Below are positions 1 through 12,210 of a stretch of 20,193 bases of DNA, one piece after another (within the stretch, counting starts at the first letter, position 1; the number at the start of each line of letters is the position of its first letter). Both the position numbers and the translations under genes were made by a program. The DNA is from a virus, in the IMG/VR virus record IMGVR_UViG_3300049919_000191, positions 1-20,193 of that record; one strand, written 5' to 3'. The notes beneath the pieces were generated by a model. The model was not told where the DNA came from. It did no database searches and saw only the letters and a list, made by a program, of their open reading frames with translations.

Positions 1-1361
1 AGTTCTTCCTGCGTAGTAGTGTCGGGTAGCTCATCTACACCAATGCTGCGTAGAACCGCGTTGATTACATCAAGGGTTTTTGGAAGCATACCAGTAGCCG
101 CTGCTCTTTGAATCATCTTGCTGAATGTATCTAGGTCATAGTCCTCGAAACCTTCGTAGTCAATCCTACAACGCTTAGAAGCATCCCAACCATTCAACTC
201 GTACAACTGTCTAATCAGATCGTTATTGAGTACAGCAACAATCTGTTTGACATAGTTTTCAACAGCAGTACCAGTCAAGGAGTTCTTAATTGCACCTAGC
301 GCAAAACTACCTGTCTCGCTGTTACCTGCTAAAAGAATATCAGAAGACATACCTATGAAAATCATCATACGGTAGTATTCTTTAATCTTCGTTGTATCGT
401 AGTTCTTCTTACCTTCGTTCGACAACAGTTCTAGTTTGAACATTGGTTGTCTAGTCTCAGGGTCATACATCAACGGATAAACAATTCCCGATTGACTGTT
501 CATCTGTATGTTGCGTACTAAGTTCTGAGCGTAAGTGTAGAAAGACTTTTGCTCTGGACTTGCATCAGCAGCCATGTATTGAGGTGGAATACCAAAACTA
601 GGCAACCCCTGCAAGTCTTTAGCTACACCGGATGCCTCAAGTTCCTCAATTGCTTGTAGGTACTTCCAAGGTAAGTAAACATTACGCAGAGGACTTGTAC
701 CGAAGGGGTTTGTCTTCTTGTCTCCAGCAGCGAAAAGCATGATCTTGTTACGGGGAATCACAGGACTCTTGACAGAAAGTTTTACGTATCTGTTGTATGG
801 GTCGGAGATCAAATCAATCTCTTGTTTTATTCCTAGTATTTGTTCACCTGTGTCATCAAACACAAATTTACTAATACTTCTTTGATGTCTTAGACTGAGT
901 TTGCGAATACCAATAAGACCATCATCATAGAGACTTCCAGCATCCTTGGTTCTACGCCTGAAGATTTTTTCCAACGGAGCAAAACCATAGTCAATCATTG
1001 TCATTGCTTCTGCGACAACATCAGGGAGAGTAGTCTCCATGTCACCAAACATTTCTTCTATGATTCTAGTCTGAGACTTTTGTTCTTCTGTTGCGTCTTT
1101 TGGAGGTAGAAACCTGAAGGTTGTTTTTCCGACCATTGATTTATGTAACGCAACAGAAGCGTTGATGGAAGGGTGAAGCATCATTTTTTCAAAAGTATCA
1201 TTTGACTTTGGATACTTCAAGTCGTCAACCATCTCGGTTTCAACAACACCATCAAAAATCTTCAGACCACTGTAACCTATCGAGGAGAGTTTAAAACGGT
1301 CTGGAGTATCAGTACCAGATGCTTTCTCAATTGTTTCTTTTGTATTTTTACGAGTAGCCAT
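1..1361 (-). CDS. Phage portal protein, Mu gp29/DUF935-like (3' end outside window)
   Basis: An open frame of 453 codons runs from ATG at 1361 to the window edge without a stop, so the C-terminus is missing. The portal forms the dodecameric ring at the capsid vertex through which DNA is packaged and ejected. Recognisable parts are an N-terminal region with LHPSINASVALHKSMVG near residue 70, an RNKIMLF...NPFGTSPLRNVYLPW segment near 205-230 and a C-terminal GMLPKTLDVINAVLRSIG segment near 435, the order I know from DUF935-type portals. The Shine-Dalgarno TAAAGGAAAG overlaps the terL stop codon, so the two genes are translationally linked. I translated it by hand; the family call is by motif memory, not a search. 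Confidence 0.85.
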   Translation of the reverse strand, partial: MATRKNTKETIEKASGTDTPDRFKLSSIGYSGLKIFDGVVETEMVDDLKYPKSNDTFEKMMLHPSINASVALHKSMVGKTTFRFLPPKDATEEQKSQTRIIEEMFGDMETTLPDVVAEAMTMIDYGFAPLEKIFRRRTKDAGSLYDDGLIGIRKLSLRHQRSISKFVFDDTGEQILGIKQEIDLISDPYNRYVKLSVKSPVIPRNKIMLFAAGDKKTNPFGTSPLRNVYLPWKYLQAIEELEASGVAKDLQGLPSFGIPPQYMAADASPEQKSFYTYAQNLVRNIQMNSQSGIVYPLMYDPETRQPMFKLELLSNEGKKNYDTTKIKEYYRMMIFIGMSSDILLAGNSETGSFALGAIKNSLTGTAVENYVKQIVAVLNNDLIRQLYELNGWDASKRCRIDYEGFEDYDLDTFSKMIQRAAATGMLPKTLDVINAVLRSIGVDELPDTTTQEE

Positions 1362-1375
1362 CCGGCTTTCCTTTA

Positions 1376-2839
1376 TTATGATAGTTTGGTAACTAAGTGG
1401 CTAGGTATTGTTGTGTCTTGAAAACCGAACGAATTTGTTTTCGATGCAAAATCAGGAAGAACGAAGGAAGATGGAAGCTGGATACCTTGGTTTAAATGGT
1501 AGAAACTATCTGATAAAGCGTCAGCTATATCGTCGTGTGTGTTTTGACTAAAATCCATTTTTTCAAGTTCAGTAAACGCAGAGTCTGTCCAGCTTGCTTT
1601 AACACATTGCACGTAACCAGCTTCGCAAGCACTGGCAAAAGGAAGAAATCTCTGAAGTTTTCCTTTTTCTGGGCGAATAAGTTTTACATGAAAACCACGC
1701 TCAGACAAACGCCTAGCAAGGTCTTTGCAGTATGCCCCACCAGTTGCACCGGGGTCGAGAGGAAGAGATATTACAACTTCCTTGCCATCGCGTTCTGCTG
1801 TTTTAAAAATCACATCTTCAACAACATGTACCTTATCTCTGACAATAGCTAAATCTTCAAACGTGTAAACAGAAGCTTTGTCTTTAGACAAAAGAACTCC
1901 TGCTGTTGCATCTACATCAGGACGTACTTCAGATGGAGCACTGAATGCTAAATCCCAAGCACGAACTCTTTTAAATGCTGAAAAATTCGCAGTGTCCACC
2001 ATTTTCAGGTTTTCACGTTTGAAATATCCAGATTTACTTTCCCTAACCCAAGCACCATGTAGGAGTCTTTTTACCTCGACAGGAGGTAAGGCTTTCAAAG
2101 TACTTATGTAGTCTTTGTTTTGTTCAAGTCCAATAGGGTTGTCATATATTTTACCGGGCACAAACCTGTAGCTCTTGACTGGAGAATTTCCCCTAGCATC
2201 TGCTGGATGTTTTCTCCGTGCCTCTTCTGCATCAGCGTAGAAGTGTGTGCCAAAACTATCTCGAACAAAGTATCTTTCAATATCTGCCACAGAGCTATCT
2301 GGTATCATGTCACTGTCTAGACTAAACTCGACAAAAGGCATTAGGAACGAATCTGGGTCTGGGTTGCAAGTAATATTGGCCTGCAAAGGATAGTCTACTA
2401 TGGTTGATCTGAGTCTACTGAGCGCATACGCCACGTTATCACCATCTAGTTGCTGTCCCTCATCCAGCGAGATACGACTAAACTCCTTACCTTGTAAGTT
2501 CATGCGATCCGCAATCTTATCAAGATAGGTGAACTGTATCTGAGCACCAGAGCTAAACACTAGGGTTAAATCTCTAGTTTTTATTTTAAGTTTTGGATCA
2601 ATTTTACTATAAAGCTGTATGGCTGCATCAAACAAACTACCACTACCAGACAACATTTTTGTCGTCTTACGTATAACTAGTGCTCTAGTTCCCTTGTGGT
2701 GTATGATAGGTAGCATACTCCCCAGTAGACACATTGATTTACCAGCAAAAGCAGCGCCACCGTATATCGTTAACCAGCTTTTACTCAATAAGAATGCCTG
2801 TTGAGCAGCACTAGCTGGCGCAAATAGTATTTTACTCAA
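1376..2839 (-). CDS. terL: Terminase large subunit
   Basis: DNA-packaging motor and nuclease, 487 aa, a typical TerL length. The N-terminal ATPase shows Walker A GGAAFAGKS at 27-35, Walker B RISLDE at 122-127 and a coupling-motif candidate ITCNPDP at 156-162. The C-terminal RNase H-like nuclease shows AWDLA at 294-298 (D296), LDPGATGG at 361-368 (D362) and HDDIADALSD at 435-444 (D436, D440), so all expected acidic residues are present. It pumps DNA through the portal encoded directly downstream and cuts the concatemer. It lies between the probable small subunit and the portal, the standard order. The family call is firm. Confidence 0.96.
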   Translation of the reverse strand: MSKILFAPASAAQQAFLLSKSWLTIYGGAAFAGKSMCLLGSMLPIIHHKGTRALVIRKTTKMLSGSGSLFDAAIQLYSKIDPKLKIKTRDLTLVFSSGAQIQFTYLDKIADRMNLQGKEFSRISLDEGQQLDGDNVAYALSRLRSTIVDYPLQANITCNPDPDSFLMPFVEFSLDSDMIPDSSVADIERYFVRDSFGTHFYADAEEARRKHPADARGNSPVKSYRFVPGKIYDNPIGLEQNKDYISTLKALPPVEVKRLLHGAWVRESKSGYFKRENLKMVDTANFSAFKRVRAWDLAFSAPSEVRPDVDATAGVLLSKDKASVYTFEDLAIVRDKVHVVEDVIFKTAERDGKEVVISLPLDPGATGGAYCKDLARRLSERGFHVKLIRPEKGKLQRFLPFASACEAGYVQCVKASWTDSAFTELEKMDFSQNTHDDIADALSDSFYHLNQGIQLPSSFVLPDFASKTNSFGFQDTTIPSHLVTKLS

Positions 2840-2850
2840 AACATTTCCTT

Positions 2851-3207
2851 TTATTCTTCTTTTTTGCTTCCATCAATTACGTGCAAGCTAAACGAAGGTG
2901 TAGAATCTTTCTGAATCTCTTCACCTTTTTCGTCATCATACTTTTCTTGATACAACTCTACACTTAGGCTACGGTTGAACTCCATAATCCATTTACTCGC
3001 TTGGAATCGGACATTAGCTGGTGTTGCATTATCTTCCAACAACATGATCATGGTCTTCAAAGCCTTAGCCATGTGTGGTTTTACTTTCCTAGCAAGAGAA
3101 AGTAGTGTTTTTTCACGAAGCTCCCTATTGGTAAGATCGTCTGTAACGGTAGGTTCTTTAACCTTGTGTCCGAGAAGTTTTTTCTGAACGTTTGCGTCAA
3201 ATGGCAT
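2851..3207 (-). CDS. Probable terminase small subunit
   Basis: 118 aa, read mainly from position: it sits 11 nt upstream of terL in the same direction. The small subunit recognises viral DNA and hands it to TerL. The protein is charged, with a helical middle (LREKTLLSLARKVKPHMAKAL) followed by a segment with RFQASKWIMEF, the kind of ending seen in small terminases, and an acidic tail. I chose ATG 3207: an in-frame TTG at 3255 lies inside a hairpin (3233-3263) and would add 16 unlikely residues. The Shine-Dalgarno at 3207 is weak (AATAAGAAAAATAA). No helix-turn-helix is obvious, so the call rests on synteny. Confidence 0.65.
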   Translation of the reverse strand: MPFDANVQKKLLGHKVKEPTVTDDLTNRELREKTLLSLARKVKPHMAKALKTMIMLLEDNATPANVRFQASKWIMEFNRSLSVELYQEKYDDEKGEEIQKDSTPSFSLHVIDGSKKEE

Positions 3208-3232
3208 TTTATTTTTCTTATTCTGAAAACGA

Positions 3233-3263
3233 CAAAACCCCGTGCTAAAAAGCAAAGGGTTTG
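3233..3263 (-). terminator. Hairpin between tRNA cluster and terS, possible terminator or processing site
   Basis: Arms CAAAACCCC / GGGTTTG enclose TGCT-AAAA-AGCA (as read on the plus strand). On the minus strand the hairpin is followed by GTCGTTTTC, a short imperfect U tract. It lies just after the last tRNA and just before terS, so it could end or process the tRNA transcript. The stem has small internal mismatches, so termination is only partial at best. Confidence 0.45.
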
Positions 3264-3277
3264 AAATTAATTATGTT

Positions 3278-3352
3278 TGGAGTATCCTAGGTGAATCGAA
3301 CACCTGTACTTTACTTAGAAGGAAAAGAGTCTACCGTTAACTTAATTGGTAC
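3278..3352 (-). tRNA. tRNA-Arg(TCT)-like gene with an unpaired acceptor stem
   Basis: The 3' half is canonical: T-arm AGGTG-TTCGATT-CACCT, then AGGATAC, T and an encoded CCA (3278-3280). The anticodon arm reads TTTTC-CTTCTAA-GTAAA, with one T-T mismatch and anticodon TCT after U33. A D-arm AGTT-AACGGTA-GACT fits. The 5' acceptor strand should read GTATCCT, but the upstream bases are the end of tRNA-Glu (ACCA at 3347-3350), so at most four or five of seven pairs form, and only by overlapping the neighbour. It is either an overlapping tRNA needing repair or a decaying one. The 5' end is uncertain. Confidence 0.55.
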
Positions 3353-3422
3353 ACACACGGAGAATTGAACTCACGATTCTTTGGTTGAAAACCAAATATC
3401 CTAACCACTAGACGATGCGTGT
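3347..3422 (-). tRNA. tRNA-Glu(TTC)
   Basis: 76 nt with encoded CCA. Acceptor ACACGCA pairs fully with TGTGTGT (one G-U). The anticodon arm is TTTGG-TTTTCAA-CCAAA with anticodon TTC, decoding GAA/GAG. The D-arm carries AGTGGTTAGG. The T-arm CGTGAG-TTCAATT-CTCCG pairs with a single bulged T. It is the middle gene of a leftward cluster, and its CCA end touches or overlaps the Arg-like gene. Confidence 0.9.
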
Positions 3423-3439
3423 AAATTATTGCTATCAAA

Positions 3440-3516
3440 TGGTCTATGTGGATGGATTTGAACCACCGACATCTTCCTTCCAAGGGAAGTAGGTTACCAG
3501 ACTGCCCTACACATAG
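3440..3516 (-). tRNA. tRNA-Pro(TGG)
   Basis: 77 nt with encoded CCA. Acceptor CTATGTG/CACATAG pairs perfectly. The anticodon arm is CTTCC-CTTGGAA-GGAAG with anticodon TGG, decoding CCN, chiefly CCA. C1:G72 and A73 fit proline identity. The T-arm contains GGTTCAAATCC. It is clean and presumably functional. Confidence 0.92.
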
Positions 3517-3525
3517 ATACTTGAT

Positions 3526-3600
3526 TGGAAGCGGGAGCTGGAATTGAACCAGCGACCTTTGGGTTATGATCCCAATAAGCTACCCCTGCTCCATCCCGCT
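3526..3600 (-). tRNA. tRNA with CAT anticodon and initiator (fMet) hallmarks
   Basis: 75 nt with encoded CCA. Acceptor AGCGGGA/TCCCGCT, D-arm GAGC-AGGGGTA-GCTT, anticodon arm TTGGG-ATCATAA-CCCAA, variable loop AGGTC, T-arm GCTGG-TTCAATT-CCAGC. Three consecutive G-C pairs next to the anticodon loop and a purine-pyrimidine A11:T24 pair are the classical marks of bacterial initiator tRNA, and the sequence tracks E. coli tRNA-fMet closely. Unlike cellular initiators, position 1:72 is a weak A-T pair rather than a C-A mismatch, and the discriminator is T. Elongator Met or Ile2 is less likely on these marks. Confidence 0.85.
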
Positions 3601-3603
3601 GTA

Positions 3604-3750
3604 TTATTTCATAGAGTTCTTTGTTCTTTACACCACGTATCAACCACAGTATCAGTGTGTTCTAGGTTATATCTAGTTTCTACGTAGTTTTGCTATTTAC
3701 CCACAAAGATAGGCTGTTGATTAGACATTTTTGCAGACTCTATGAAATAA
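3604..3750 (-). ncRNA. 147-nt inverted-repeat element between two tRNA genes
   Basis: A perfect 14-bp inverted repeat (TTATTTCATAGAGT at 3604-3617 and its complement at 3737-3750) closes a 119-nt loop. Inside are a possible ATCAAC/GTTGAT stem and short palindromes such as CTACGTAG. On the minus strand it would be cotranscribed with the tRNAs. It holds no tRNA; a minus ORF of 11 codons (3693-3728, beginning MSNQQPIFVGK) is the only coding hint and may be a gene remnant. Strand and function are inferred. Confidence 0.45.
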
Positions 3751-3752
3751 GA

Positions 3753-3821
3753 ACTAGCGAGTGGACTCGAACCACCGCACAAGGATTTTGGCCTTTGATC
3801 TACCGACTGATCTACGCTAGT
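3753..3821 (-). tRNA. Anomalous tRNA-like gene, anticodon loop lacks U33
   Basis: The acceptor ACTAGCG/CGCTAGT is a perfect 7-bp stem, the D-arm GATC-AGTCGGTA-GATC is canonical, and the T-arm GGTGG-TTCGAGT-CCACT is canonical. The anticodon arm AAAGG-CCAAAAT-CCTTG puts AAA at the anticodon, but C replaces the near-invariant U33, there is no base 26, the variable loop is short and no CCA is encoded. It is clearly tRNA-derived. It is either a degraded gene or an unusual tRNA, nominally Phe(AAA). It is the first tRNA-like gene after the promoter at 4032-4059. Confidence 0.6.
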
Positions 3822-3867
3822 AATGACGCTTTTCCGTTGCGACAAACGACCCTAAGGTAAGGTGTTC

Positions 3868-4014
3868 TAGTTTTATTTAATGATGGTCATTGTGTGCTCA
3901 GTGCAATAACATCACTGCCCAACGTTGGTGGCCTGTAGGGGTTCATCCACCCGCTTCTACGCCAAAGTTATCAACCTTTGTTTAGCACGCAATGGCCATC
4001 ATTAAATAAAACTA
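3868..4014 (-). ncRNA. 147-nt structured element with a 31-bp terminal stem, leader of the tRNA cluster
   Basis: Arms at 3868-3898 and 3984-4014 match over 31 bp with two differences, enclosing 85 nt. Read as minus-strand RNA (the direction of the promoter just upstream) the two differences are A-C mismatches; read as plus-strand RNA both become G-U pairs. Inside are hairpins CAGTG-N9-CACTG, a GTAG/CTAC stem stacked on GGGT/ACCC, a CCAACGTTGG palindrome and CAAAG/CTTTG. I recognise no named RNA family. It may be a leader, an RNase target or a separate small RNA. Confidence 0.55.
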
Positions 4015-4031
4015 AATACCTGAGAAACTCT

Positions 4032-4059
4032 AGTATACCACGGTTTTGTAAAAACGCAA
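4032..4059 (-). promoter_or_regulatory. Sigma70-type promoter for the tRNA leader
   Basis: On the minus strand, -35 TTGCGT (4059-4054), 16-nt spacer, -10 TATACT (4037-4032), preceded by CCGTGG, the motif shared with the divergent promoters near 5.5 kb. Transcription would start near 4025, a few bases before the 147-nt element, and run through the tRNAs. Confidence 0.65.
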
Positions 4060-4076
4060 GCGGTTGTTTAAATAAA

Positions 4077-4268
4077 TTAATAATAATCCGAATAAAGCAC
4101 TGCTGGAGTTACTTTTGATCCGTTTATTGTACGCAGAGCTTCTATCTCATCTTGGATTTCAGCGTCACTAGGGTACTGCTGTTGCTCGTATTGGAAACAG
4201 TACTCACAGTGTATGGTTTTGTCGTATTTTACTGGTCTAATTACACCAGTGCAGTCAATGCATTTCAT
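4077..4268 (-). CDS. Small zinc-ribbon-like protein
   Basis: 63 aa. Two CxxC knuckles, C3/C6 and C21/C24, spaced 14 residues apart, look like one zinc-binding ribbon, followed by an acidic helix (SDAEIQDEIEAL) and a tyrosine-rich tail. Such proteins often bind nucleic acid or a protein partner, but nothing identifies the target. ATG 4268 has only a weak A-rich ribosome site. The next minus gene ends 272 nt upstream, so it may have its own transcript. Confidence 0.65.
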   Translation of the reverse strand: MKCIDCTGVIRPVKYDKTIHCEYCFQYEQQQYPSDAEIQDEIEALRTINGSKVTPAVLYSDYY

Positions 4269-4307
4269 TATTTTTATTTTTGTTTATTAACCCCGAAGGG
4301 GAAGATT

Positions 4308-4493
4308 ATGGATTCTTCTGCAATCGAATCACTTAGAGTGTTATGTAAAAGGAATAAATATAACACAATGAACCTCATTGCCAATTATTCATCAAAGCAC
4401 TCAAGAGAGTTTGTGCCACAGAATGGAAAGTCTAATAAAGGTTCTTTGGTCTGTGTACTAAGCAATTGTAACTATTTAGTTGCAGTGCTGTGA
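4308..4493 (+). CDS. Possible small protein on the opposite strand, unknown function
   Basis: 61 aa (begins MDSSAIESLRVLCKRNKYN), occupying a 270-nt stretch that carries no minus-strand gene. The start has a good Shine-Dalgarno, AGGGG seven bases before ATG, but that site is one arm of CCCC-GAA-GGGG, so initiation could be sequestered. A hairpin GTGCT-ATTTT-AGCAC lies just after the stop. No homology is recognised, and it is a lone rightward ORF in a leftward block, so it may be spurious. Confidence 0.35.
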   Translation: MDSSAIESLRVLCKRNKYNTMNLIANYSSKHSREFVPQNGKSNKGSLVCVLSNCNYLVAVL

Positions 4494-4539
4494 TTGTGCT
4501 ATTTTAGCACGAAAACAGTAAAAAGTCAAACGCAATGTG

Positions 4540-5055
4540 CTACTGACTAGTACGAATGTGCTGATTTACAAACTTCACCATTTCTAGGATTTTCTTTTGA
4601 GCAAAACTATTCGCACTACTTATATCATAAAAGGTATTACGATGATGTGATTTTCCCAACCAAGACACCACATAAGCGTGTTTATCCTGTGTGTGTTGTT
4701 TTACGTTCAATCCCCCAGCCAAGTTCCTAAGTGCTACTTGTATTTTCGTATATACTTTCCTATCGACAAGTTTCAGATTATGAAACTTTATGTTTTCGTT
4801 GTCTAAATCGAGACATAGTACTTTCTTATCAGAAGGAATAACCTTGCCCGATCCTAGAACAAAAGCTAGATTGTGATAGAGCAGGTTTTTCCGTAGTTTC
4901 GATTCAGTATCATACAAATACACCTTTCCCGTTTCTGGGTTTGGAAGGATTCTTCTGTTGTTTTCTTGTCTGTGAATCAATCCTTGTTCTTTATCATACT
5001 TGTAAAGAATCTGTAATCGTTCAGGGGTTATATCAGGAGACAGACGTTGTTGCAC
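4540..5055 (-). CDS. HNH-fold protein, probably catalytically degenerate
   Basis: About 171 aa. The layout matches phage HNH/AP2-type proteins: LYKYDKEQGLI at 17-27, LLYHNLAFVLGSG at 58-70, then VLCLDLDNENIKFHNLKLV at 79-97, where active enzymes have V-x-H-x-D-x-D...N...NL. The expected first histidine is replaced by C81, so nuclease activity is doubtful while DNA binding may remain. The C-terminal part resembles the AP2-like half with VVSWLGK. I chose GTG 5055 because GGAGG lies five bases upstream; a longer frame from TTG 5067 would start inside that Shine-Dalgarno. It overlaps the preceding gene by 23 nt. Confidence 0.65.
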   Translation of the reverse strand: MQQRLSPDITPERLQILYKYDKEQGLIHRQENNRRILPNPETGKVYLYDTESKLRKNLLYHNLAFVLGSGKVIPSDKKVLCLDLDNENIKFHNLKLVDRKVYTKIQVALRNLAGGLNVKQHTQDKHAYVVSWLGKSHHRNTFYDISSANSFAQKKILEMVKFVNQHIRTSQ

Positions 5056-5236
5056 CAGAACCTCCAATCAAGCCCCTACCACGGGCAAACCCTGCCATGA
5101 AACCTAGGCGCAACAACTCATAGGATAATTTCTTTTCTGTGTCGTCTAGATAACCTGTACACCGTTTAAAACGAGTCACGGAGTCTTTATCTGTCTCGTT
5201 CAACCATTCATGGAATTTAATATCATGTTCTTTCAT
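5033..5236 (-). CDS. Unknown small phage protein
   Basis: 67 aa, soluble and charged (KEHDIKFHEWLNETDKDS...), with a GFMAGFARGRGLIGGSG glycine-rich C-terminal region. Family not recognised. ATG 5236 has a strong Shine-Dalgarno AAGGAG seven bases upstream. It overlaps its upstream neighbour by 4 nt and its downstream neighbour by 23 nt, so it belongs to one translationally coupled operon from the promoter at 5469-5496. Confidence 0.7.
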   Translation of the reverse strand: MKEHDIKFHEWLNETDKDSVTRFKRCTGYLDDTEKKLSYELLRLGFMAGFARGRGLIGGSGATTSVS

Positions 5237-5439
5237 ACAATCTCCTTACTTGTTGTTCCTTCAAACAGAACACTCTCACCACGTATCTCTCGCAGGAAAC
5301 TCCAGAAAAAGTTTGCGTAAGCAGATTGAGCACTACTCTCTAAGTATCGAAATGGCGGCACTATGTCAAAGGTAGCCTCACCTTCTTCGTACATCATTGC
5401 ATCAGTTTTTGCATTCAATAATATGTTTGCTGTGTTCAT
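5233..5439 (-). CDS. Unknown small phage protein, first gene of the leftward operon
   Basis: 68 aa, no recognised domain; it contains a short aromatic stretch ANFFWSFLREIRG at about 42-54. ATG 5439 follows AGAAAGG at good spacing, and the predicted promoter lies 30 nt upstream. Its stop overlaps the start of the next gene, so the two are coupled. Confidence 0.7.
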   Translation of the reverse strand: MNTANILLNAKTDAMMYEEGEATFDIVPPFRYLESSAQSAYANFFWSFLREIRGESVLFEGTTSKEIV

Positions 5440-5468
5440 GTAAAACCTTTCTGATTGGTTAAAACTCT

Positions 5469-5496
5469 ATTTTACCACAGATATTTTGATTTGCAA
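5469..5496 (-). promoter_or_regulatory. Leftward promoter with extended -10
   Basis: Minus strand: -35 TTGCAA (5496-5491), 16-nt spacer ending CTGTGG, -10 TAAAAT (5474-5469). The TGG before the -10 makes it an extended -10 promoter. It drives the gene at 5439. Confidence 0.65.
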
Positions 5497-5513
5497 CTTA
5501 GTCTTAGATTCTG

Positions 5514-5522
5514 TGGTATAAT
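5514..5522 (+). promoter_or_regulatory. Rightward extended -10 promoter
   Basis: TGG then TATAAT (5517-5522), a perfect -10 with an extended TG. No -35 sits at normal spacing: the TTGCAA at 5491 is 20 nt away and is already the -35 of the leftward promoter, being its own reverse complement. It probably contributes to the rightward block. Confidence 0.5.
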
Positions 5523-5559
5523 TGCAAAAGCACTCAAGTTAGCCAAAGTAGATTCTACC

Positions 5560-5588
5560 TTGACTTTCAGAGTATCCTGTGGTAATAT
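5560..5588 (+). promoter_or_regulatory. Rightward promoter of the central block
   Basis: -35 TTGACT (5560-5565), 17-nt spacer ending CTGTGG, -10 TAATAT (5583-5588). Only about 14 nt separate the expected start site from the TTG start of the first gene, which rules out an upstream GTG start at 5579 that lies within the promoter. Confidence 0.7.
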
Positions 5589-5608
5589 GTTATTTTAAGG
5601 AGAAGAAT

Positions 5609-5932
5609 TTGACAAAACGAATAGAAGCATACACGTTTTATGACTTTATTATGAAAGTACAGGAAGCAGTAAAGGAAGGGTGGTGTGTTGACCCCAACGA
5701 CTCAGAGGGTTATCCTCAAGCACATACAGGGTTCTACCGTTGTGGTATGCATAGACAAGAGAAAATTGCCGCGTTATTGTTACCAAAGCAACCCGCGTTA
5801 GTTGTCGAAGCGCAAGAACCAGAACGAGAAACCGTTACTCAAGAGTTCACTCCTTCTCTGGTCTTCACAGTACAGGAAGATGTGCAACCAGTCAAACGTG
5901 CGGTTGGTCGTACTAAATCGAACTCAATCTAA
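5609..5932 (+). CDS. Unknown phage protein, first rightward gene
   Basis: 107 aa from TTG 5609, which sits six bases after a perfect AAGGAG. The N-terminal part (MTKRIEAYTFYDFIMKVQEAVKEG) is alpha/beta-like, with a C55-HRQ-type segment FYRCGMHRQE in the middle; the C-terminal 45 residues are low-complexity and end in basic KRAVGRTKSNS. Function not recognised. The alternative GTG start at 5579 overlaps the promoter -10. It is the first gene of the unit that leads to PhoH. Confidence 0.7.
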   Translation: MTKRIEAYTFYDFIMKVQEAVKEGWCVDPNDSEGYPQAHTGFYRCGMHRQEKIAALLLPKQPALVVEAQEPERETVTQEFTPSLVFTVQEDVQPVKRAVGRTKSNSI

Positions 5933-5933
5933 T

Positions 5934-6062
5934 ATGCGGCATAAACTAGAATTACTGTACATTTATTCAAGATTTAAAATCCTTGAGTGGTATTTCGTTA
6001 GTTGTATTGTTTTGCGTGAGTGGAAACGTGAAATATCACTCTTCACTAAAAATAATTCGTAA
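5934..6062 (+). CDS. Possible 42-residue protein, translationally coupled
   Basis: ATG 5934 begins one base after the TAA of the preceding gene and reads 42 codons, rich in aromatic and basic residues (HKLELLYIYSRFKILEWYF...). There is no independent Shine-Dalgarno, so it would rely on reinitiation. It ends 16 nt before phoH and fills the gap neatly. No homology recognised; it may be a chance frame. Confidence 0.4.
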   Translation: MRHKLELLYIYSRFKILEWYFVSCIVLREWKREISLFTKNNS

Positions 6063-6078
6063 ATAAAGGAGAACGGTT

Positions 6079-6855
6079 TTGAAACGTAGACAAAAAACAA
6101 CAGAAGATATTGTAAAGAAAGAGAAATTCCAACGGATTGATTTTCCACAGCTTTACCCAAAGAACGAAAATCAACGACTTTTCTTAGAATCTTTCAAGTA
6201 CGATACAATGGTGGTTGGTGAAGGTAGCTCTGGTGTAGGTAAAACCCTACTAGCTTGCTATCACGCAGCTAAAAAACTACACTACGGGGATGTTAAGAAA
6301 GTTGTACTTATTCGGGCATATCAACCCTTAGCTGGAAGAACTATCGGTTTCATGCCCGGCGATGCTCTGATGAAGTTGTTACCTTTTTATCAACAAATGG
6401 TTGACTACTTTGAGGACTATCTTGGTAAAGCACGTACGCAGATTCACCTTACTCAAGGTACAATTGAAATTTGTTCACTAGAGACAATTCGTGGTCGGTC
6501 TTGGGATGATGCAATAATTATTGTAGATGAAGCACAAAACTTGTTTGTTCCTGAAATCCAAGCCTTGTGTACCCGATTGGGTGAGAAGAGTCAGATGATT
6601 TTTTGCGGAGATGACACTGGTTTTCAAACAGACGTGAAGAACAGCATGAACGGTTTAACGTATCTACAAAAACTGACGGAAAAATACAACATCCCTGAAG
6701 TGACTTTTGTTAAGTTCAACCGTGAGGATATTTGTCGCTCTGGTATTACGAAATCTTTTGTCACAGCTTTTGAGGATGAAATGCTAGCGGATAAAACAGG
6801 TAAAGCTATTTTGTCGCAGACAGAACAAGACAAACAGTTTAAAAAACACCGATAA
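6079..6855 (+). CDS. phoH: PhoH-like P-loop ATPase
   Basis: 258 aa from TTG 6079, seven bases after AAGGAG. It has Walker A GSSGVGKT at 49-56, the PhoH signature region RAYQPLAGRTIGFMPGD at 79-95 and Walker B IIIVDEAQN at 146-154, then FCGDDTGFQTD as sensor-like segment near 175-185. PhoH proteins are ATPases of the helicase superfamily; they are very common in phage genomes, with proposed roles in RNA or phosphate-stress metabolism, but the phage function is not settled. It is cotranscribed with the ClpP-like gene 14 nt downstream. Confidence 0.92.
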   Translation: MKRRQKTTEDIVKKEKFQRIDFPQLYPKNENQRLFLESFKYDTMVVGEGSSGVGKTLLACYHAAKKLHYGDVKKVVLIRAYQPLAGRTIGFMPGDALMKLLPFYQQMVDYFEDYLGKARTQIHLTQGTIEICSLETIRGRSWDDAIIIVDEAQNLFVPEIQALCTRLGEKSQMIFCGDDTGFQTDVKNSMNGLTYLQKLTEKYNIPEVTFVKFNREDICRSGITKSFVTAFEDEMLADKTGKAILSQTEQDKQFKKHR

Positions 6856-6869
6856 GAAAAAGGGTAAAC

Positions 6870-7508
6870 ATGCTTGAATTGAGAAATAAAAACTCTGAAG
6901 AATATAGTGATGAAGACTTTGACGATATACCACAACAACGCGGTAGTAAAAACCTGTTTGAAACAACTCACCGATCTACCGCTTACGACTATTATCTAGA
7001 TACCCCGATAGGCGACAAGAGCAAGTATCGAGATTTGCTTCACACGCTCTACAACATGGAAGAAGGAGATTCCCTAAGACTGTTTGTGAGCGGGCCGGGT
7101 GGACAACTCGATACAATGCTGGAGATTATCACTGCTGTTGAATCTTGTCGTGGGCGTGTTATTGGTGTTCTAACGGGTACAGCAGCGTCTGCTCACGGTA
7201 TCCTTGCGTTAGCCTTGCCCGAGCTGCAAGTGCTCCACAGAGCTAGTATTATGATTCACAACGCTTCTTTTGGTGCGGGTGGTAAAGTACAAGAAGTTCA
7301 ATCTATGGTTGACTATAGTATTAAAGTCTGCAAAGAAGTGTTTGAAGAATTTTATACAGGTTTTCTTAGTGAAACAGAACTTGCTGATCTTTTCAAAGGC
7401 GTGGATTTCTACTTTAATGCACAAGAAATACAAACAAGGTTGAAGAAGAGAAATACTTATCGTAAGAAACAAATCAATGTTGTGAAAAAGAAAACAACAG
7501 ACAATTAA
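6870..7508 (+). CDS. ClpP-like serine protease
   Basis: 212 aa. The ClpP/crotonase-type core is visible: SGPGGQLDTMLEI at 74-86, catalytic serine in GTAAS (S107), histidine in MIHN (H130) and aspartate in GVDFYFNAQEI (D179), so the triad looks complete. The first 40 residues are an acidic extension (EEYSDEDFDDIPQQR). Phage ClpP-like proteases usually mature the prohead and sit near the portal; this one is instead beside PhoH on the opposite strand, so a regulatory or host-directed role is also possible. The basic tail KKRNTYRKK is unusual. The gene ends at a strong terminator. Confidence 0.85.
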   Translation: MLELRNKNSEEYSDEDFDDIPQQRGSKNLFETTHRSTAYDYYLDTPIGDKSKYRDLLHTLYNMEEGDSLRLFVSGPGGQLDTMLEIITAVESCRGRVIGVLTGTAASAHGILALALPELQVLHRASIMIHNASFGAGGKVQEVQSMVDYSIKVCKEVFEEFYTGFLSETELADLFKGVDFYFNAQEIQTRLKKRNTYRKKQINVVKKKTTDN

Positions 7509-7515
7509 ACTGATA

Positions 7516-7556
7516 AAAACCTCCTACAAGAAATAAATCTCGTAGGAGGTTTTTCT
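7516..7556 (+). terminator. Strong rho-independent terminator
   Basis: AAACCTCCTAC and GTAGGAGGTTT form an 11-bp stem around a 14-nt loop, followed by TTTTTCTTT. It ends the PhoH/ClpP transcript. The same arm sequence recurs in the terminator at 13411-13445. Confidence 0.9.
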
Positions 7557-7569
7557 TTATTAAAAATAG

Positions 7570-7575
7570 TATAAT
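7570..7575 (+). promoter_or_regulatory. Likely promoter -10 after the terminator
   Basis: A perfect TATAAT directly follows the terminator, 32 nt before the next start codon. No good -35 is seen; the terminator U tract occupies that place. Confidence 0.45.
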
Positions 7576-7607
7576 CTCTCCATCAACAACTCTGAAAGGA
7601 AAACAAA

Positions 7608-7988
7608 ATGACTATAAAACACGCAGAAATCATCAAGCACATGGTAGATCATGGGTATGAAAGCGTAGAGTATGAGTATGGTGGTCGATGGTTTTTTGCT
7701 AGAGAAAGCATAACTCCTCTACGCCTTCCTACTTTTAACTGGCGCATTAGACCTGCTGAAAAATTATTGCACATAGAAAATTTTCCAACACCTGAGACAA
7801 AAGCACTCGCATACGGAGAAACATATTATCTGTTGACAATCAGTCCCTGCATACCAAACTTGTGTACATGGTACAACGCAAACGATGAATGGGTAGCTTT
7901 GAAAAAGGGACGAGTGTATAAGTCGAAAGATAAATGCAATTTGGCACGCAATCTGCTCCTGTCTGCCTTGTCTGTAACGGTGACGTGA
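7608..7988 (+). CDS. Conserved-type phage protein, unknown function
   Basis: 126 aa. The first 50 residues (EIIKHMVDHGYESVEYEYGGRWF...PTFNWRIRPAE) have the layout of a small domain often repeated in phage proteins, ending in W-RIRP. The second half has aromatic-rich strands and a basic C-terminus. It probably acts in the cytoplasm; no catalytic motif is seen. ATG 7608 follows GAAAGGA at good spacing. It is transcribed from the -10 at 7570. Confidence 0.75.
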   Translation: MTIKHAEIIKHMVDHGYESVEYEYGGRWFFARESITPLRLPTFNWRIRPAEKLLHIENFPTPETKALAYGETYYLLTISPCIPNLCTWYNANDEWVALKKGRVYKSKDKCNLARNLLLSALSVTVT

Positions 7989-8060
7989 TGACTTTGCATT
8001 CGATTGTCACAGAACACGATCTTGTATTTCACAAAACACGTACTAGGTTAATAGAAAACG

Positions 8061-8069
8061 TGTTATACT
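8061..8069 (+). promoter_or_regulatory. Extended -10 promoter
   Basis: CGTGT then TATACT (8064-8069): an extended -10 of the same style as other promoters in this genome. The -35 region is weak. It lies 33 nt before the gene at 8102. Confidence 0.5.
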
Positions 8070-8101
8070 TACGTTGTTATTAATTTTAAAGGAGATCACA
8101 A

Positions 8102-8500
8102 ATGAGTAAAATCGAAATAGGTAAAAAATACCAAACGAAAAGCAACATCAAAGTAAAACGTGTACTCTGCACGGATGCTGCTGCCCCCTTTTCTGTTGTT
8201 GTGCTGTTGGAAAATGGTAAAATCATCCGAACCACAGAGCACGGCGAATATTATGAAGTAGAAATACCTCACGACTTTGATTTAGTAGAGGTATCTCCGT
8301 TCTCTGAATTTAAAGACGGAGACCCTGTTATGGTGCGTGACAACGATATGCAGGTTTGGAGAAAACGATATTTTGCTCGTGTTTCACCGCAAAGTAGTTC
8401 AATACAGGCCTACACAGATGGTACAACCAAGTGGTCAAACGATGGTCGTTTTTCAGACTGGAATCAGTGCCGTAAACCAACACAAGCAGAACTGGAATGA
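8102..8500 (+). CDS. Phage protein with FKDGDPVMVRD domain, unknown function
   Basis: 132 aa. The N-terminal 60 residues form a beta-rich segment (EIGKKYQTKSNIKVKRVLC...). The C-terminal 65 carry FKDGDPVMVRDNDMQVWRKR...WNQCRKPTQAEL, a module I know as the tail of many unrelated phage proteins, with an SH3-like look and a conserved W-x-x-CR-PT. The function of that module is not known. It has a good Shine-Dalgarno AAAGGAG. Its stop overlaps the next start (ATGA). Confidence 0.75.
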   Translation: MSKIEIGKKYQTKSNIKVKRVLCTDAAAPFSVVVLLENGKIIRTTEHGEYYEVEIPHDFDLVEVSPFSEFKDGDPVMVRDNDMQVWRKRYFARVSPQSSSIQAYTDGTTKWSNDGRFSDWNQCRKPTQAELE

Positions 8501-8799
8501 CTTACACAGCCAATGAATTGTTCAGAACAGCGTTTAACTACATGGATTTACAATTAGACTGCGCCTTTGGAAGAGGATTACCGCATGGAATAAACCAAGT
8601 ATGCGTTTGTTGTAAGGCTGGATCGTTAGATGAAGCTGGAGCTACGATTGGTTCTGTTGATAGAATCACTGATGAATTAGAACTTAAACCGTGGTCAACC
8701 TTTTACAAGACAAAAGAATACACTGCTTATGTGTGTAGGAGTTGTGGTTATCAGTGGTCATGGTATAGAGACAAACAACAAAAGGAAACTACAGAATGA
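8497..8799 (+). CDS. Zinc-ribbon protein
   Basis: 100 aa with two CxxC pairs, C36-V-C-C39 and C80-R-S-C83, about 40 residues apart, the second in VCRSCGYQWSW typical of a zinc ribbon. It could bind DNA, RNA or a protein partner; the context (next to a DNA methyltransferase) hints at DNA metabolism but does not show it. It begins within an ATGA overlap and ends in another, so translation is coupled on both sides. Confidence 0.75.
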   Translation: MTYTANELFRTAFNYMDLQLDCAFGRGLPHGINQVCVCCKAGSLDEAGATIGSVDRITDELELKPWSTFYKTKEYTAYVCRSCGYQWSWYRDKQQKETTE

Positions 8800-8849
8800 A
8801 TCCTAAACAATCCACGTTAAGCGAAAGAATAGTTTTATGCAAGAAATAA
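8796..8849 (+). CDS. 17-codon overlapping ORF leading into the methyltransferase
   Basis: It starts in ATGA at the stop of the zinc-ribbon gene (reads MNPKQSTLSERIVLCKK) and ends 13 nt inside the methyltransferase gene. The methyltransferase has a poor Shine-Dalgarno, so ribosomes finishing this short frame could reinitiate there. It could be a coupling device rather than a functional peptide. Confidence 0.3.
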   Translation: MNPKQSTLSERIVLCKK

Positions 8850-9898
8850 ACGTACTTAGTTTGTTTGATGGAATATCTTGTGGACAAGTCGCACTACAAA
8901 GAGCAGGTGTTGTTGTAAACAACTACTTTGCGTCAGAGGTAGATAAATACGCTATAGCAGTTACACAGAAAAACTACCCAAATACTCACCAACTCGGAGA
9001 TGTTACAGCAATAAAAGCTGAGCACCTACCTAAGATTGATTTATTGATAGGAGGGAGTCCCTGTCAAGGTTTTTCTTTTGCTGGCAAAGGTTTAAACTTC
9101 GATGACCCACGGAGTAAACTGTTTTTTGAGTTTGTGAGACTACTAAAGGAAGTAAAACCTAAGTATTTCTTACTAGAAAACGTGGTTATGAAAAAAGAAA
9201 TATCTGCTGTTATTTCAGAGCTTCTTGGTGTGCAACCAATCATGATAAACAGCAGTCTTGTCTCTGCTCAAAACCGCAAGAGGCTTTACTGGACAAACAT
9301 ACCGAACGTACAACAACCAGAAGACTTAGGTTTGATGTGGGGTCATGTTAGAGAAACAGGTGTTAATTCTGAGAGCTATTACTACACAGAGAAAGCAATG
9401 CAGTGGTTGGCTAGAAGTAGTCAGAAACGAAACAAAGTGCTGGTTGTTCACTCAGACTTCGAGAAAATGCAGATGATTGAAGCTAGTCACTGCAAGAAAT
9501 ACAGTAATCAGAGGTTTTTCGGTATTGTGGATTACCCGACATGCAAACAAACAATTGCTTCCTTGCGAGGGAGATTTGTTGTTGGTGGAAAAAGACAAGA
9601 TAGTAAAGTAAGCACCGAAGGTTTGACAAAACAATACATTGAGTTCAGGTATGACAACAAGTCAAACTGCTTGAGTACAGTAAAGAAAGACAACATTGTT
9701 GTACCTTTTACACTTCCCTATAGGATACCTCCTGATGATTTCCTGTTCCGTTACATAACTCCTTTGGAATGCGAAAGACTTCAGACGTTACCAGACGGAT
9801 ACACTAGCTGTGTGTCAGATACACAACGGTATAAGGCGATTGGTAACGGTTGGACTGTAGATGTTGTTGCTGGTATCTTCAAAAGCATGGTACAATAA
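8837..9898 (+). CDS. DNA (cytosine-5-)-methyltransferase
   Basis: 353 aa, typical for a C5 methyltransferase. Motif I LSLFDGISCGQ at 7-17 (AdoMet binding), motif IV GGSPCQGFSF at 72-81 with catalytic C76, motif VI LLENV at 112-116, motif VIII QNRKRLYW at 145-152, a target-recognition stretch at about 190-300, then ITPLECERLQ and AIGNGW at the C-terminus (motifs IX-X). It transfers a methyl group to C5 of cytosine in a site that cannot be read from the sequence. No restriction endonuclease is nearby, so protection of phage DNA from host restriction is the likely role. The start is weakly supported by a ribosome site; coupling to the short ORF above is possible. Confidence 0.95.
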   Translation: MQEINVLSLFDGISCGQVALQRAGVVVNNYFASEVDKYAIAVTQKNYPNTHQLGDVTAIKAEHLPKIDLLIGGSPCQGFSFAGKGLNFDDPRSKLFFEFVRLLKEVKPKYFLLENVVMKKEISAVISELLGVQPIMINSSLVSAQNRKRLYWTNIPNVQQPEDLGLMWGHVRETGVNSESYYYTEKAMQWLARSSQKRNKVLVVHSDFEKMQMIEASHCKKYSNQRFFGIVDYPTCKQTIASLRGRFVVGGKRQDSKVSTEGLTKQYIEFRYDNKSNCLSTVKKDNIVVPFTLPYRIPPDDFLFRYITPLECERLQTLPDGYTSCVSDTQRYKAIGNGWTVDVVAGIFKSMVQ

Positions 9899-9931
9899 CT
9901 TCATCAACAACACAGCCAGAAAGGAAACCTC

Positions 9932-10357
9932 ATGTCAAACTCTATGCAAATTAAACTAAGCGATTACGTATCCGATGAAGAAATAAAAGCTACCATCCTT
10001 GATGAAATCCGACGATTTACACGTAACAACACCGAGACTACACTCAAGAGAATCTTCTCCAACGGTGCTTACGAGATTCTTTCCCAGTGTATTGATAAGA
10101 ACACATCTGCTTCTGTGTTGGAAGAACTAGCAAACACAGTCAATCGTTTGTTGACTGATAAAGCCTCAATTCAGTACCAGCTTTTCAAACAGCCCGACCA
10201 GTGGAATAGAGAACCAAGTATGGTTGCTAGAGTTTTCTCAGACTGTGTTTTTAAACGTGGAAAAGAAATCGCGGAAGCTGTTGACAAACATCTTGCTACG
10301 TTAAACGCAAAAGATTTTAAAACTTTTCTAATCCGCTATGCGGTAAAAGAAAAATAA
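9932..10357 (+). CDS. Unknown helical phage protein
   Basis: 141 aa, predicted largely alpha-helical (LSDYVSDEEIKATILDEIRRFTRNN, then VLEELANTVNRLL). No catalytic or metal motif. Good Shine-Dalgarno AAAGGAAAC. It follows the methyltransferase by 33 nt and is probably in the same transcript. I do not recognise the family. Confidence 0.75.
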   Translation: MSNSMQIKLSDYVSDEEIKATILDEIRRFTRNNTETTLKRIFSNGAYEILSQCIDKNTSASVLEELANTVNRLLTDKASIQYQLFKQPDQWNREPSMVARVFSDCVFKRGKEIAEAVDKHLATLNAKDFKTFLIRYAVKEK

Positions 10358-10393
10358 GCGCTTCAAACCTAAACCATCAGTGAAAGGAAAACC

Positions 10394-10588
10394 ATGTTAT
10401 TCATGCCTATTTTATTCTTCTGTACAGTAAACGGTGTATGCGCGTTTAAAGCGTTTCCAGCTACTACAAACGTCTCTTACTGCAATCAGGCAGTACAAGA
10501 GATCAAAACACGACTAGAACCCTCACTAGATGACTTCAGCACTATAGCCGTTACTTGTGTCAGTGTAAAGAAAGCTGAAGAAGTATGA
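10394..10588 (+). CDS. Small exported or membrane-anchored protein
   Basis: 64 aa. Residues 1-17 (MLFMPILFFCTVNGVCA) are hydrophobic, compatible with a signal peptide or a short anchor, with later cysteines that could form a disulphide in the periplasm. The remainder is soluble. No lysis motif is seen. Shine-Dalgarno GAAAGGA. Its stop overlaps the following start by ATGA. Confidence 0.65.
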   Translation: MLFMPILFFCTVNGVCAFKAFPATTNVSYCNQAVQEIKTRLEPSLDDFSTIAVTCVSVKKAEEV

Positions 10589-10791
10589 ACTGGTGTTTAT
10601 TTGGTTTTCATAAATATAGTAAATTTACTGGTTTAATAGATGCACGAAATAGTGATTTTACTAAATTACAGGCAAGAGTTTGTGAAGATTGTGGTAAAAT
10701 ACAAGTAAAGAAAATATCCCAACCTTGGAACACTTGGTTTCTTTTAAGCGATACAAACACAAAACTAGAAGAGTTGCAATGCAAAAATTAA
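10585..10791 (+). CDS. Small zinc-ribbon-like protein
   Basis: 68 aa. MNWCLFGFHKY at the start and RVCEDCGKIQ at 31-40 give one CxxC (C33, C36), with C4 and H9 as possible further ligands: the layout of small phage/plasmid proteins of the LFGFHKY...CxxCGK type. Function unknown. It is translated from an overlap with the preceding gene. Confidence 0.7.
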   Translation: MNWCLFGFHKYSKFTGLIDARNSDFTKLQARVCEDCGKIQVKKISQPWNTWFLLSDTNTKLEELQCKN

Positions 10792-10841
10792 CCAAAGATC
10801 AGCAGATTGTCAACTGTGTTGTTGTATTGATTTCAGAGTAA
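10779..10841 (+). CDS. 20-residue ORF, possibly a gene remnant
   Basis: MQKLTKDQQIVNCVVVLISE from ATG 10779 with AGAAGAG upstream, overlapping the end of the previous gene by 13 nt. It is too short for a domain. It resembles the beginning of a larger protein cut off by the stop at 10839, and may be a relic. Confidence 0.3.
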   Translation: MQKLTKDQQIVNCVVVLISE

Positions 10842-10850
10842 TGACAAGAC

Positions 10851-10878
10851 TTGCATAAAACTGTTCAAAACATATTAA
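10851..10878 (+). promoter_or_regulatory. Possible promoter
   Basis: -35 TTGCAT (10851-10856), 16-nt spacer, -10 TATTAA (10873-10878), 27 nt before the start of the membrane protein at 10906. Confidence 0.45.
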
Positions 10879-10905
10879 ATAACTTACATATAAAGGTACT
10901 ACTCA

Positions 10906-11280
10906 ATGGACTCTTTCAGTTTTCTTCTCTTTATTGTTATTGCTTTTGGTGGTTTCATCCTATTTTCACACATAGTGTATATAGTTGCTTTTGATGTGAT
11001 TAACGAAAAAGCAGACGACAAAATAGCAAATTGTTTTAAAGATATAGATAAACTCTTATCTCCTCATGGTCTGGAAGTAATGAGGCGAAGTAACAATTGT
11101 TGGACAATTTATGACTGTGCTTGTAGTATGCCTTTTTCAGTTGCTATTCCAGCTAGTAAATTCTTATTTTTATTAAAACAATTAAAGTACGGTAAGATTA
11201 CAACAGAAGATTTTTTGAGCTATCTTAGGAACACTGAAATAAAGCACACTAGGAAATTACAGAAATCCAAGGAACTATAA
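10906..11280 (+). CDS. Small inner-membrane protein, unknown function
   Basis: 124 aa. Residues 5-29 (FSFLLFIVIAFGGFILFSHIVYIV) form one transmembrane helix, followed by a soluble domain with several cysteines (CWTIYDCACSM) and a basic tail. The topology suggests a cytoplasmic or periplasmic domain tethered to the inner membrane. Not a recognised holin. Shine-Dalgarno AAAGG, start clear. Confidence 0.7.
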   Translation: MDSFSFLLFIVIAFGGFILFSHIVYIVAFDVINEKADDKIANCFKDIDKLLSPHGLEVMRRSNNCWTIYDCACSMPFSVAIPASKFLFLLKQLKYGKITTEDFLSYLRNTEIKHTRKLQKSKEL

Positions 11281-11302
11281 CGTTAGACACAAAGGAAAAG
11301 AA

Positions 11303-11773
11303 ATGGAAACCAGAACAAGTCAACAACAGAATCGAGAGCACAGTCATTATTTCAAGGATGTGTCCAAGTTATCTAAAATAGATGTTTACCGTGTCTTACA
11401 ACTATTTAATGTCACTGACCCATGTATCCAGCACGCAGTTAAGAAGCTTCTTGTAGCTGGTGGTCGTGGTGCAGGTAAGGATGTATCGAAAGATATTAAA
11501 GAAGCAAGGGAATCACTAGTACGCTGGCAAGAAATGCAGGTAGAAACAACCCCTGAAATTCAACAAACTTTTGATGAACAACCAAAAGAAAGTAAGGTTG
11601 CTCTTGCACCTGAAGATGTTGTAGTAACTTACGACAATCACACCGTTTATCTTGTTCACAGACCAACAAATCTTACTATTGTTTACAATGATCTCTATGT
11701 AACCAAAAGGAGTGCTTGGGCACAGCTTACAGAGAAGGTTAAGAAACACAACCAACAAAAGGAAACTAAATGA
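11303..11773 (+). CDS. Phage protein with HYFKDVS...IDVYRVL domain
   Basis: 156 aa. The first 75 residues (HYFKDVSKLSKIDVYRVLQLFNVTDPC...AVKKLLVAGGRGAGKDVSKDIKEA) match a domain I recall from many phage proteins of unknown function. GGRGAGKD resembles a P-loop but lacks the K-S/T ending, so ATP binding is not supported. The second half (from about residue 95) is a separate small domain. Shine-Dalgarno AAAGGAAAAG. It overlaps the next gene by ATGA. Confidence 0.75.
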   Translation: METRTSQQQNREHSHYFKDVSKLSKIDVYRVLQLFNVTDPCIQHAVKKLLVAGGRGAGKDVSKDIKEARESLVRWQEMQVETTPEIQQTFDEQPKESKVALAPEDVVVTYDNHTVYLVHRPTNLTIVYNDLYVTKRSAWAQLTEKVKKHNQQKETK

Positions 11774-12060
11774 AATTCTATAATCCGTTTAAACCGCACA
11801 TTGTCGAGATAAATAAACTTTATTATATTAAAATACAGCAGACAACGCGACCGTGGTTCAAGGATGCTTTGTACTTGAACTGTTATTTTGTTTGGCATTA
11901 TTTTGGAACAAATACGCAGTATTTCAGCACACAAGAAGCAGCAGAAAATTTCTGGCTAGAGTATTCGGCTAGGACTAAAAAAGAAAAAGAAGCATGCACA
12001 GAATGCGCACTTGTGGGGTGCAACGGTGAATGTTCCGGCAATGGCGCGATGGGAGATTGA
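11770..12060 (+). CDS. Unknown small protein with C-terminal cysteine cluster
   Basis: 96 aa. The body (YYIKIQQTTRPWFKDALYLNCYFVWHYFGTN) is aromatic. The tail has C76, C79, C84 and C88 (ECALVGCNGECSG), a possible metal site. Function not recognised. Translated from an ATGA overlap with the preceding gene. Confidence 0.65.
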   Translation: MKFYNPFKPHIVEINKLYYIKIQQTTRPWFKDALYLNCYFVWHYFGTNTQYFSTQEAAENFWLEYSARTKKEKEACTECALVGCNGECSGNGAMGD

Positions 12061-12166: not shown

Positions 12167-12210
12167 ACCCTAAATCTATAACTTAACCCTAACTCAATAA
12201 AGGAACAAAA

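Follow-up and report, generated by a model that had tools for sequence, protein, structure and literature searches.

A methionine tRNA gene with the anticodon CAU, carried by a 20,193-base virus record, descends, as its sequence shows, from a bacterial initiator tRNA, and its acceptor end is closed by an A1:U72 pair followed by U73. The whole of this record was analysed and is referred to below as the window. Watson-Crick pairs at 1:72 recur in viral initiator-like tRNAs, including those of cultured phages. The best explanation we can offer, and one we hold with about even confidence, is that the gene provides a dual-use methionine tRNA of initiator ancestry, which would serve both initiation and elongation. 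Annotation has already placed initiator-type tRNAs in phages, T5 among them. In the open-access literature searched we found no account of phage initiators paired at 1:72, and we therefore regard the paired-end variant as what is new.

ARAGORN predicts a tRNA-Met(CAT) at exactly 3526-3600 on the minus strand, and Rfam matches it with 61.2 bits (E 2.7e-11), the top score of five tRNA matches in the window; the CAT tRNA placed there by a first-pass annotation, made without database searches, is thus a real gene. It is not a sequencing slip, since a second IMG/VR contig (IMGVR_UViG_3300048573_000182) is 100% identical over window positions 1-13199. A more distant relative, L004, is syntenic with the window and has a terminase 79% identical to that of the window. 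The tRNA parses as AGCGGGA TG GAGC AGGGGTA GCTT A TTGGG ATCATAA CCCAA AGGTC GCTGG TTCAATT CCAGC TCCCGCT T CCA. Its anticodon stem contains the three G:C pairs of bacterial tRNA-fMet (G29:C41, G30:C40, and G31:C39, hereafter the GGG stem). Position 11:24 is A11:U24, the purine:pyrimidine arrangement of bacterial initiators and not the pyrimidine 11:purine 24 of elongator tRNA-Met. Bacterial initiators lack a Watson-Crick pair at 1:72, and the window tRNA has one, A1:U72. The first-pass annotation had read these stem pairs, A11:U24 and A1:U72 correctly. Among the minor determinants for the formyltransferase Fmt, G2:C71, C3:G70, and G4:C69 are present, though A73 is replaced by U73. This replacement had gone unremarked, as had a G10:U25 pair, a D-loop shortened by two bases, and A26 for G26 and A32 for C32, the last two hinting at a degree of drift. 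The features discussed here are collected in Table 1.

Table 1. Features of the window, with strand and supporting evidence.
Feature	Position	Strand	Evidence and remarks
Portal protein	3..1361	-	phrog_113, E 9.7e-61
Terminase large subunit, TTG start	1376..2839	-	phrog_979, E 1.2e-134
Truncated tRNA	3288..3345	-	Rfam 32.4 bits; anticodon UCU by reading
tRNA-Glu(UUC)	3347..3422	-	ARAGORN, Rfam
tRNA-Pro(UGG), next in cluster	3440..3516	-	ARAGORN, Rfam
Initiator-type tRNA-Met(CAU)	3526..3600	-	ARAGORN, Rfam, parse, classifier, E. coli comparison; encoded CCA
Hairpin element	3601..3750	-	Flush between Phe-like tRNA and initiator-type tRNA; syntenic in L004 at ~6070-6237
tRNA-Phe(AAA)-like element	3751..3821	-	C33, no encoded CCA, unusual anticodon

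The window tRNA is identical to E. coli K-12 tRNA-fMet (metZ/W/V) in 60 of 77 aligned columns (77.9%), a likeness already noted at first pass, versus 39 of 77 (50.6%) for the elongator tRNAs metT/metU. We built a position-profile classifier for this class of tRNA, trained on 108 distinct cellular CAU tRNAs among the matches listed, 42 with A11:U24 and 66 without, and correct for 107 of the 108 in leave-one-out trials. As an initiator the window tRNA scores 72.8 bits; the elongator-Met-like cluster gives it 39.1, and two clusters whose sequences we read as Ile2-like give it 10.5 and -3.7. Removal of ten hallmark positions (1, 72, 11, 24, 29-31, and 39-41) leaves 60.0 bits for the initiator versus 41.7. 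The class test proposed in the first-pass annotation, in which elongator Met and Ile2 were the competing assignments, therefore came out as initiator. We rejected elongator Met identity on its score and on the 50.6% identity to metT/metU, and the lysidine-type tRNA-Ile2(CAU) on its two scores together with the identity comparison. The classifier and the E. coli identity figures support descent from a bacterial initiator tRNA.

Our scan of bacterial and archaeal genomes returned at least 117 loci, from which one parse recovered 113 CAU tRNAs and a later parse 114 places with 108 distinct sequences (among the matches listed). Not one of the 42 initiator-type sequences with A11:U24 among these matches has a Watson-Crick pair at 1:72; the combinations seen are C.A (25), C.U (8), U.U (7), A.A (1), and C.C (1). 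The viral sample, selected without regard to positions 1, 72, 73, or 29-31:39-41, comprised at least 120 stretches. These gave 107 identifiable loci (85 new and 22 relisted, among the matches listed), from which 104 places were parsed and 101 distinct initiator-like tRNAs obtained. Twenty-four of the 101 are Watson-Crick paired at 1:72 (20 U:A, 3 G:C, and 1 A:U), compared with 0 of the 42 cellular sequences (Fisher p 1.3e-4, both counts among the matches listed). Cellular tRNAs that fit the viral search pattern itself likewise gave 0 of 41 among the matches listed. One of 41 cellular CAU tRNAs with the GGG stem (L214, among the matches listed) does have A1:U72, and it falls outside the A11:U24 count because it has G11:C24. 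A first viral sample, on which the GGG stem had been imposed, drew at least 120 stretches and 105 parsed tRNAs, not deduplicated, of which 22 are Watson-Crick at 1:72 (among the matches listed). Part of this contrast between viral and cellular tRNAs, drawn among the matches listed, could reflect host groups outside the cellular sample. A search of 299 Pseudomonadota genomes for the A1:U72 pattern (AGCG...CGCT ends) found two with a match. The contig of the first, 10.8 kb long, includes phage-type genes such as a CI-like repressor and an anti-repressor; the second match is near a contig end and adjoins metal-response genes. None of 100 Pseudomonadota genomes and none of 99 Bacteroidota genomes matched the U1:A72 pattern (TGCG...CGCA ends).

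Twenty-two named phages were parsed, T5 by accession and 21 from matches to two A1:U72 queries. Nine of the 22 have a paired 1:72 end, a rate that is biased because 21 of them were found through A1:U72 queries. The pair is A:U in a Kolesnikvirus, D479, Pan5, and phiAS5, and U:A in CcrSC, CcrColossus, CN1A, Kaldavass, and A3Wally. The filter was passed by 21 of the phages, including all nine paired ones; phiKX1 (C1.A72) failed it and was counted as unpaired. Two more Kolesnikvirus records (L246 and L247) were not counted as separate lineages, and the record of Acinetobacter phage MD-2021a (L244, CAKLQF020000005) was excluded because of its bacterial genes. In that record tpiA, secG, rimP, and nusA lie around initiator tRNAs, so that it resembles a host contig.

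The discriminator base and the closed end are associated in viruses. A complete viral scan for U73 followed by CCA found 101 stretches, 76 of them distinct. A1:U72 is present in 18 of the 76, versus 1 of 91 A73 tRNAs (the latter among the matches listed). This contrast persists after clustering at 93, 88, and 85% identity, and it overstates the coupling, since the figure of 1 in 91 rests on the matches listed and a dedicated viral A1:U72 scan shows more A1:U72 together with A73. The 119 stretches of that scan consist of 106 new loci, two of which went unparsed (L377 and L449), and, by subtraction, 13 relisted ones. It recovered 13 of the 15 U73 loci that fit its pattern, and therefore covered most of the collection. 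A73 occurs in 80 of its 101 distinct tRNAs. The reverse test found U73 in 17 of these 101, versus 5 of 101 in the general viral sample among the matches listed (p 0.012). When the control was limited to A73 tRNAs with an encoded CCA, enrichment of A1:U72 gave p values of 0.010-0.023 across clusterings, while any Watson-Crick pair gave p 0.056 at 85% clustering. The window's own sequence (L292) is counted within the 76, the 18, and the 101. The coupling of U73 with A1:U72 in viruses is therefore best described as real but moderate. Among named phages, U73 is found in all four with A1:U72, as in the window, and in 6 of the 17 others.

In the available portion of one source, MetRS is described as recognizing its tRNA mainly through the CAU anticodon, and Fmt as depending on the 1:72 mismatch as its major determinant and to a minor extent on A73, G2-C71, C3-G70, and G4-C69 (PMC9976931). 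The available portion of another gives the mismatch roles in formylation, in exclusion from the A site, and in resistance to Pth, and assigns P-site binding to the three G:C pairs (PMC11231383). The window tRNA has the anticodon, the pairs at 2:71, 3:70, and 4:69, the GGG stem, and A11:U24; it lacks the 1:72 mismatch and A73. We propose that a phage tRNA-Met derived from a bacterial initiator is probably excised from the transcript of the tRNA cluster, and that it is probably charged by the host MetRS through its CAU anticodon before joining the tRNAs of the host. With its G29-31:C39-41 stem and A11:U24 it should still be able to enter the P site. Its acceptor end has been altered from the initiator type (1:72 mismatch and A73) to a closed A1:U72 with U73, so that exclusion from EF-Tu would no longer be strict and formylation would be poorer. 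The favored role for such a tRNA is to aid phage translation in both initiation and elongation during infection. Seong & RajBhandary in 1987 reportedly found, to go by their title, that one base change enables an initiator to elongate in vitro. Counting against this dual use, A1:U72 itself is seen once in the 101 viral tRNAs and U1:A72 20 times (among the matches listed). Relaxed constraint in phage tRNAs, without any selected dual use, could also produce the same pattern.

A somewhat unlikely alternative makes the tRNA a dedicated phage initiator: Fmt would open its weak A1:U72 pair and formylate it, and the tRNA would be used at start codons only, supplying phage mRNAs with more initiator. 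The GGG stem, A11:U24, G2:C71, C3:G70, and G4:C69 all agree with this, initiator is the class favored by the classifier, and T5 carries a tRNA annotated for the purpose. A tRNA with a weak A:U pair at 1:72 can still be formylated, according to work in E. coli, so that Fmt might open the pair here; if this holds for the window tRNA then a dedicated role is conceivable. However, the tRNA has lost both its major Fmt determinant, the mismatch at 1:72, and A73, which is among the minor determinants, as judged from the available portion of PMC9976931. Formylation should also leave a paired-end tRNA exposed to Pth, because the mismatch is what confers Pth resistance in the available portion of PMC11231383. 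Of the three G:C pairs, moreover, the syntenic copy in L004 has G30:C40 alone. A dedicated initiator function is therefore not supported for the window tRNA, and the phage initiator of the first-pass annotation survives in its ancestry, on the classifier and identity figures, rather than in its function.

That annotation had further suggested that a phage initiator could bias initiation towards phage mRNAs, which often seemed to start with TTG or GTG. We chose 36 ORFs from 61 and took for each the start with the top Shine-Dalgarno score, which was ATG in 28, TTG in 6, and GTG in 2. TerL and PhoH have plausible TTG starts behind Shine-Dalgarno-like sequences. The frequency of TTG and GTG starts was nonetheless overstated, and a genome-wide bias towards non-ATG starts is not supported. 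The proposed bias in initiation has little in its favor on these counts, and the tRNA would not favor TTG or GTG over ATG because its anticodon is CAU.

The L004 counterpart of the tRNA-Met keeps A1:U72, U73, and A11:U24, and its stem (GAAGT/GCTTC) has only G30:C40 of the three; the same single pair is found in T5 and Kolesnikvirus, while D479 has all three. Position 29:41 is relaxed across viruses, being A:U in 51, U:A in 21, and G:C in 28 of 101 (among the matches listed). G31:C39 occurs in 75 of 101 viral tRNAs versus 10 of 66 cellular CAU tRNAs without A11:U24, and G30:C40 in 98 of 101 versus 56 of 66 (all among the matches listed); by these counts the viral copies are initiator-like at 31:39, and 30:40 is little informative. 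We therefore dropped conservation of G30:C40 as strong proof of initiator function. The GGG stem is kept in 5 of 24 paired versus 14 of 77 unpaired viral tRNAs (p 0.77, among the matches listed). Pairing at 1:72 thus shows no association with loss of the GGG stem, and the idea of a linked, general package of elongator conversion was rejected.

These observations bear on a second alternative, quite improbable in our view, in which the initiator-derived tRNA now brings methionine to internal AUG codons through EF-Tu. The A1:U72 closure of the end, the moderate co-occurrence of U73 with it in viruses, and the relatives in L004 and Kolesnikvirus with a single pair remaining would all fit an elongator. 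But the GGG stem and A11:U24 are retained in both the window copy and D479. Only 3 of the 18 A1:U72-U73 copies, one of them the window's own sequence, keep the GGG stem, and the window copy is for this reason not the most converted form.

Equally improbable is a nuclease-resistant replacement, in which an altered anticodon arm and tail evade VapC-type or other tRNA-cutting host defenses and so sustain initiation. Certain VapC toxins cut tRNA-fMet, and phage tRNAs are often altered in the anticodon loop, according to the available portions of PMC10264068 and PMC8522696; position 32 is A in the window tRNA and C in every one of the 42 cellular initiator-type tRNAs among the matches listed. Yet the viral loop is nearly constant, with C32 in 96 and A37 in 100 of 101 tRNAs (among the matches listed), and D479 has C32. 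The eLife source, in its available portion, indicates that phages generally avoid tRNA-fMet where VapC-LT2 is a threat (PMC10264068). Nuclease resistance could also act jointly with the dual use that we prefer.

The genes around the tRNA are those of a phage, and encode portal, terminase large subunit, PhoH-like, ClpP/head-protease-like, DNA methyltransferase, and endolysin proteins. The top-ranked match to the terminase in the phage collection is that of Limnohabitans phage DC31, at 42.4% identity. ARAGORN predicts four minus-strand tRNAs in the window, Glu, Pro, Met(CAU), and one Phe(AAA)-like, to which Rfam adds the weak, truncated fifth. By blastn the truncated tRNA matches L004 7103-7171, which ARAGORN reads as a complete tRNA-Gly(UCC). 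The L004 counterpart of the Phe-like element (6014-6071) has no anticodon arm and an Rfam match of 58 bases, and the element may be a tRNA-like processing element and not a decoding tRNA. That the tRNA-Met is a captured host initiator drifting without selection, as these truncated and C33-bearing neighbors might imply, is very unlikely, given that all its stems are intact, that CCA is encoded, that Rfam scores it at 61.2 bits, and that both syntenic L004 and D479 have the closed A1:U72, U73 end as well.

The hairpin between the Phe-like element and the tRNA-Met is placed as though excised by tRNA processing. It folds at -35.5 kcal/mol and its L004 counterpart at -39.6, with the ends paired in both, and the changes in the closing stem between the two preserve pairing. 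A short ORF within it begins MSNQQPIF in the window and MPNQQPIF in L004. The hairpin has no Rfam match at or above the gathering score, and the 7 weak matches it has in the phage collection span no more than 29% of its length. Another large inverted repeat, at 3850-4025, lies upstream of the tRNA cluster; blastn aligns its arms at 89.7% over 39 columns, and the two strands fold at -67.2 and -71.1 kcal/mol. Unusual tRNAs were also seen elsewhere. L004 has a well-formed tRNA at 6819-6894 whose anticodon, UUA, would read the UAA stop codon, and Mycobacterium phage LRRHood (L568) has an annotated CUA suppressor tRNA at 79-151, before an initiator-like tRNA-Met with A1.C72.

A broader generalization is that phages maintain a distinct class of methionine tRNAs, derived from initiators and closed at 1:72, acting as initiator and elongator and escaping the strict division of labor kept by their hosts, and that A1:U72 with U73 forms a coherent subtype among them; this we regard as unlikely. 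The closed end in 24 of 101 viral initiator-like tRNAs (among the matches listed), cultured phages included, would amount to a large natural set of variants, and the function of closed-end tRNAs is testable in laboratory-grown phages. Dual use would offer a concrete role for some phage tRNAs besides codon supply.

Several known systems resemble the window tRNA in part. E. coli tRNA-fMet (metZ/W/V) has A11:U24, the GGG stem, and the AGGUC variable loop, but differs in its C1.A72 mismatch, A73, G26, and C32. The tRNA of phage T5 (AY543070, annotated 'initiator tRNA fMet') resembles it in its CAU anticodon, A11:U24, U73, encoded CCA, and location in a tRNA cluster; it differs at 1:72, where T5 has a U1.U72 mismatch in place of the closed pair, and in its stem (CTAGT/GCTAG), where only G30:C40 remains of the three pairs that are intact in the window. 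Other phage tRNAs are annotated as tRNA-fMet in Erwinia phage Omen and Microbacterium phage A3Wally, and S. meliloti prophages are reported with tRNA-fMet in the available portion of PMC12429752. The Caulobacter jumbo phages CcrBL9 and CcrSC also have an annotated tRNA-fMet, which in CcrSC is paired at 1:72 (U1:A72); unlike the window both have U1 and U29:A41, and CcrBL9 has a U1.U72 mismatch. The tRNA-Met/tRNA-fMet of Kolesnikvirus (Ounavirinae) shares A1:U72, U73, A11:U24, and an identical acceptor-stem sequence with the window, but its stem is CCAGT/TCTGG, with only G30:C40, and its loop is UUCAUUA, with U37. The top match in the phage collection, at 90.9% identity, is a tRNA of Vibrio phage D479 (OZ195776, 218879-218955), one of the 23 tRNAs counted across a 6 kb stretch. 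It differs from the window tRNA in C32, a D-loop two bases longer, and the T-arm, and shares with it A1:U72, U73, A26, G10:U25, and the GGG stem.
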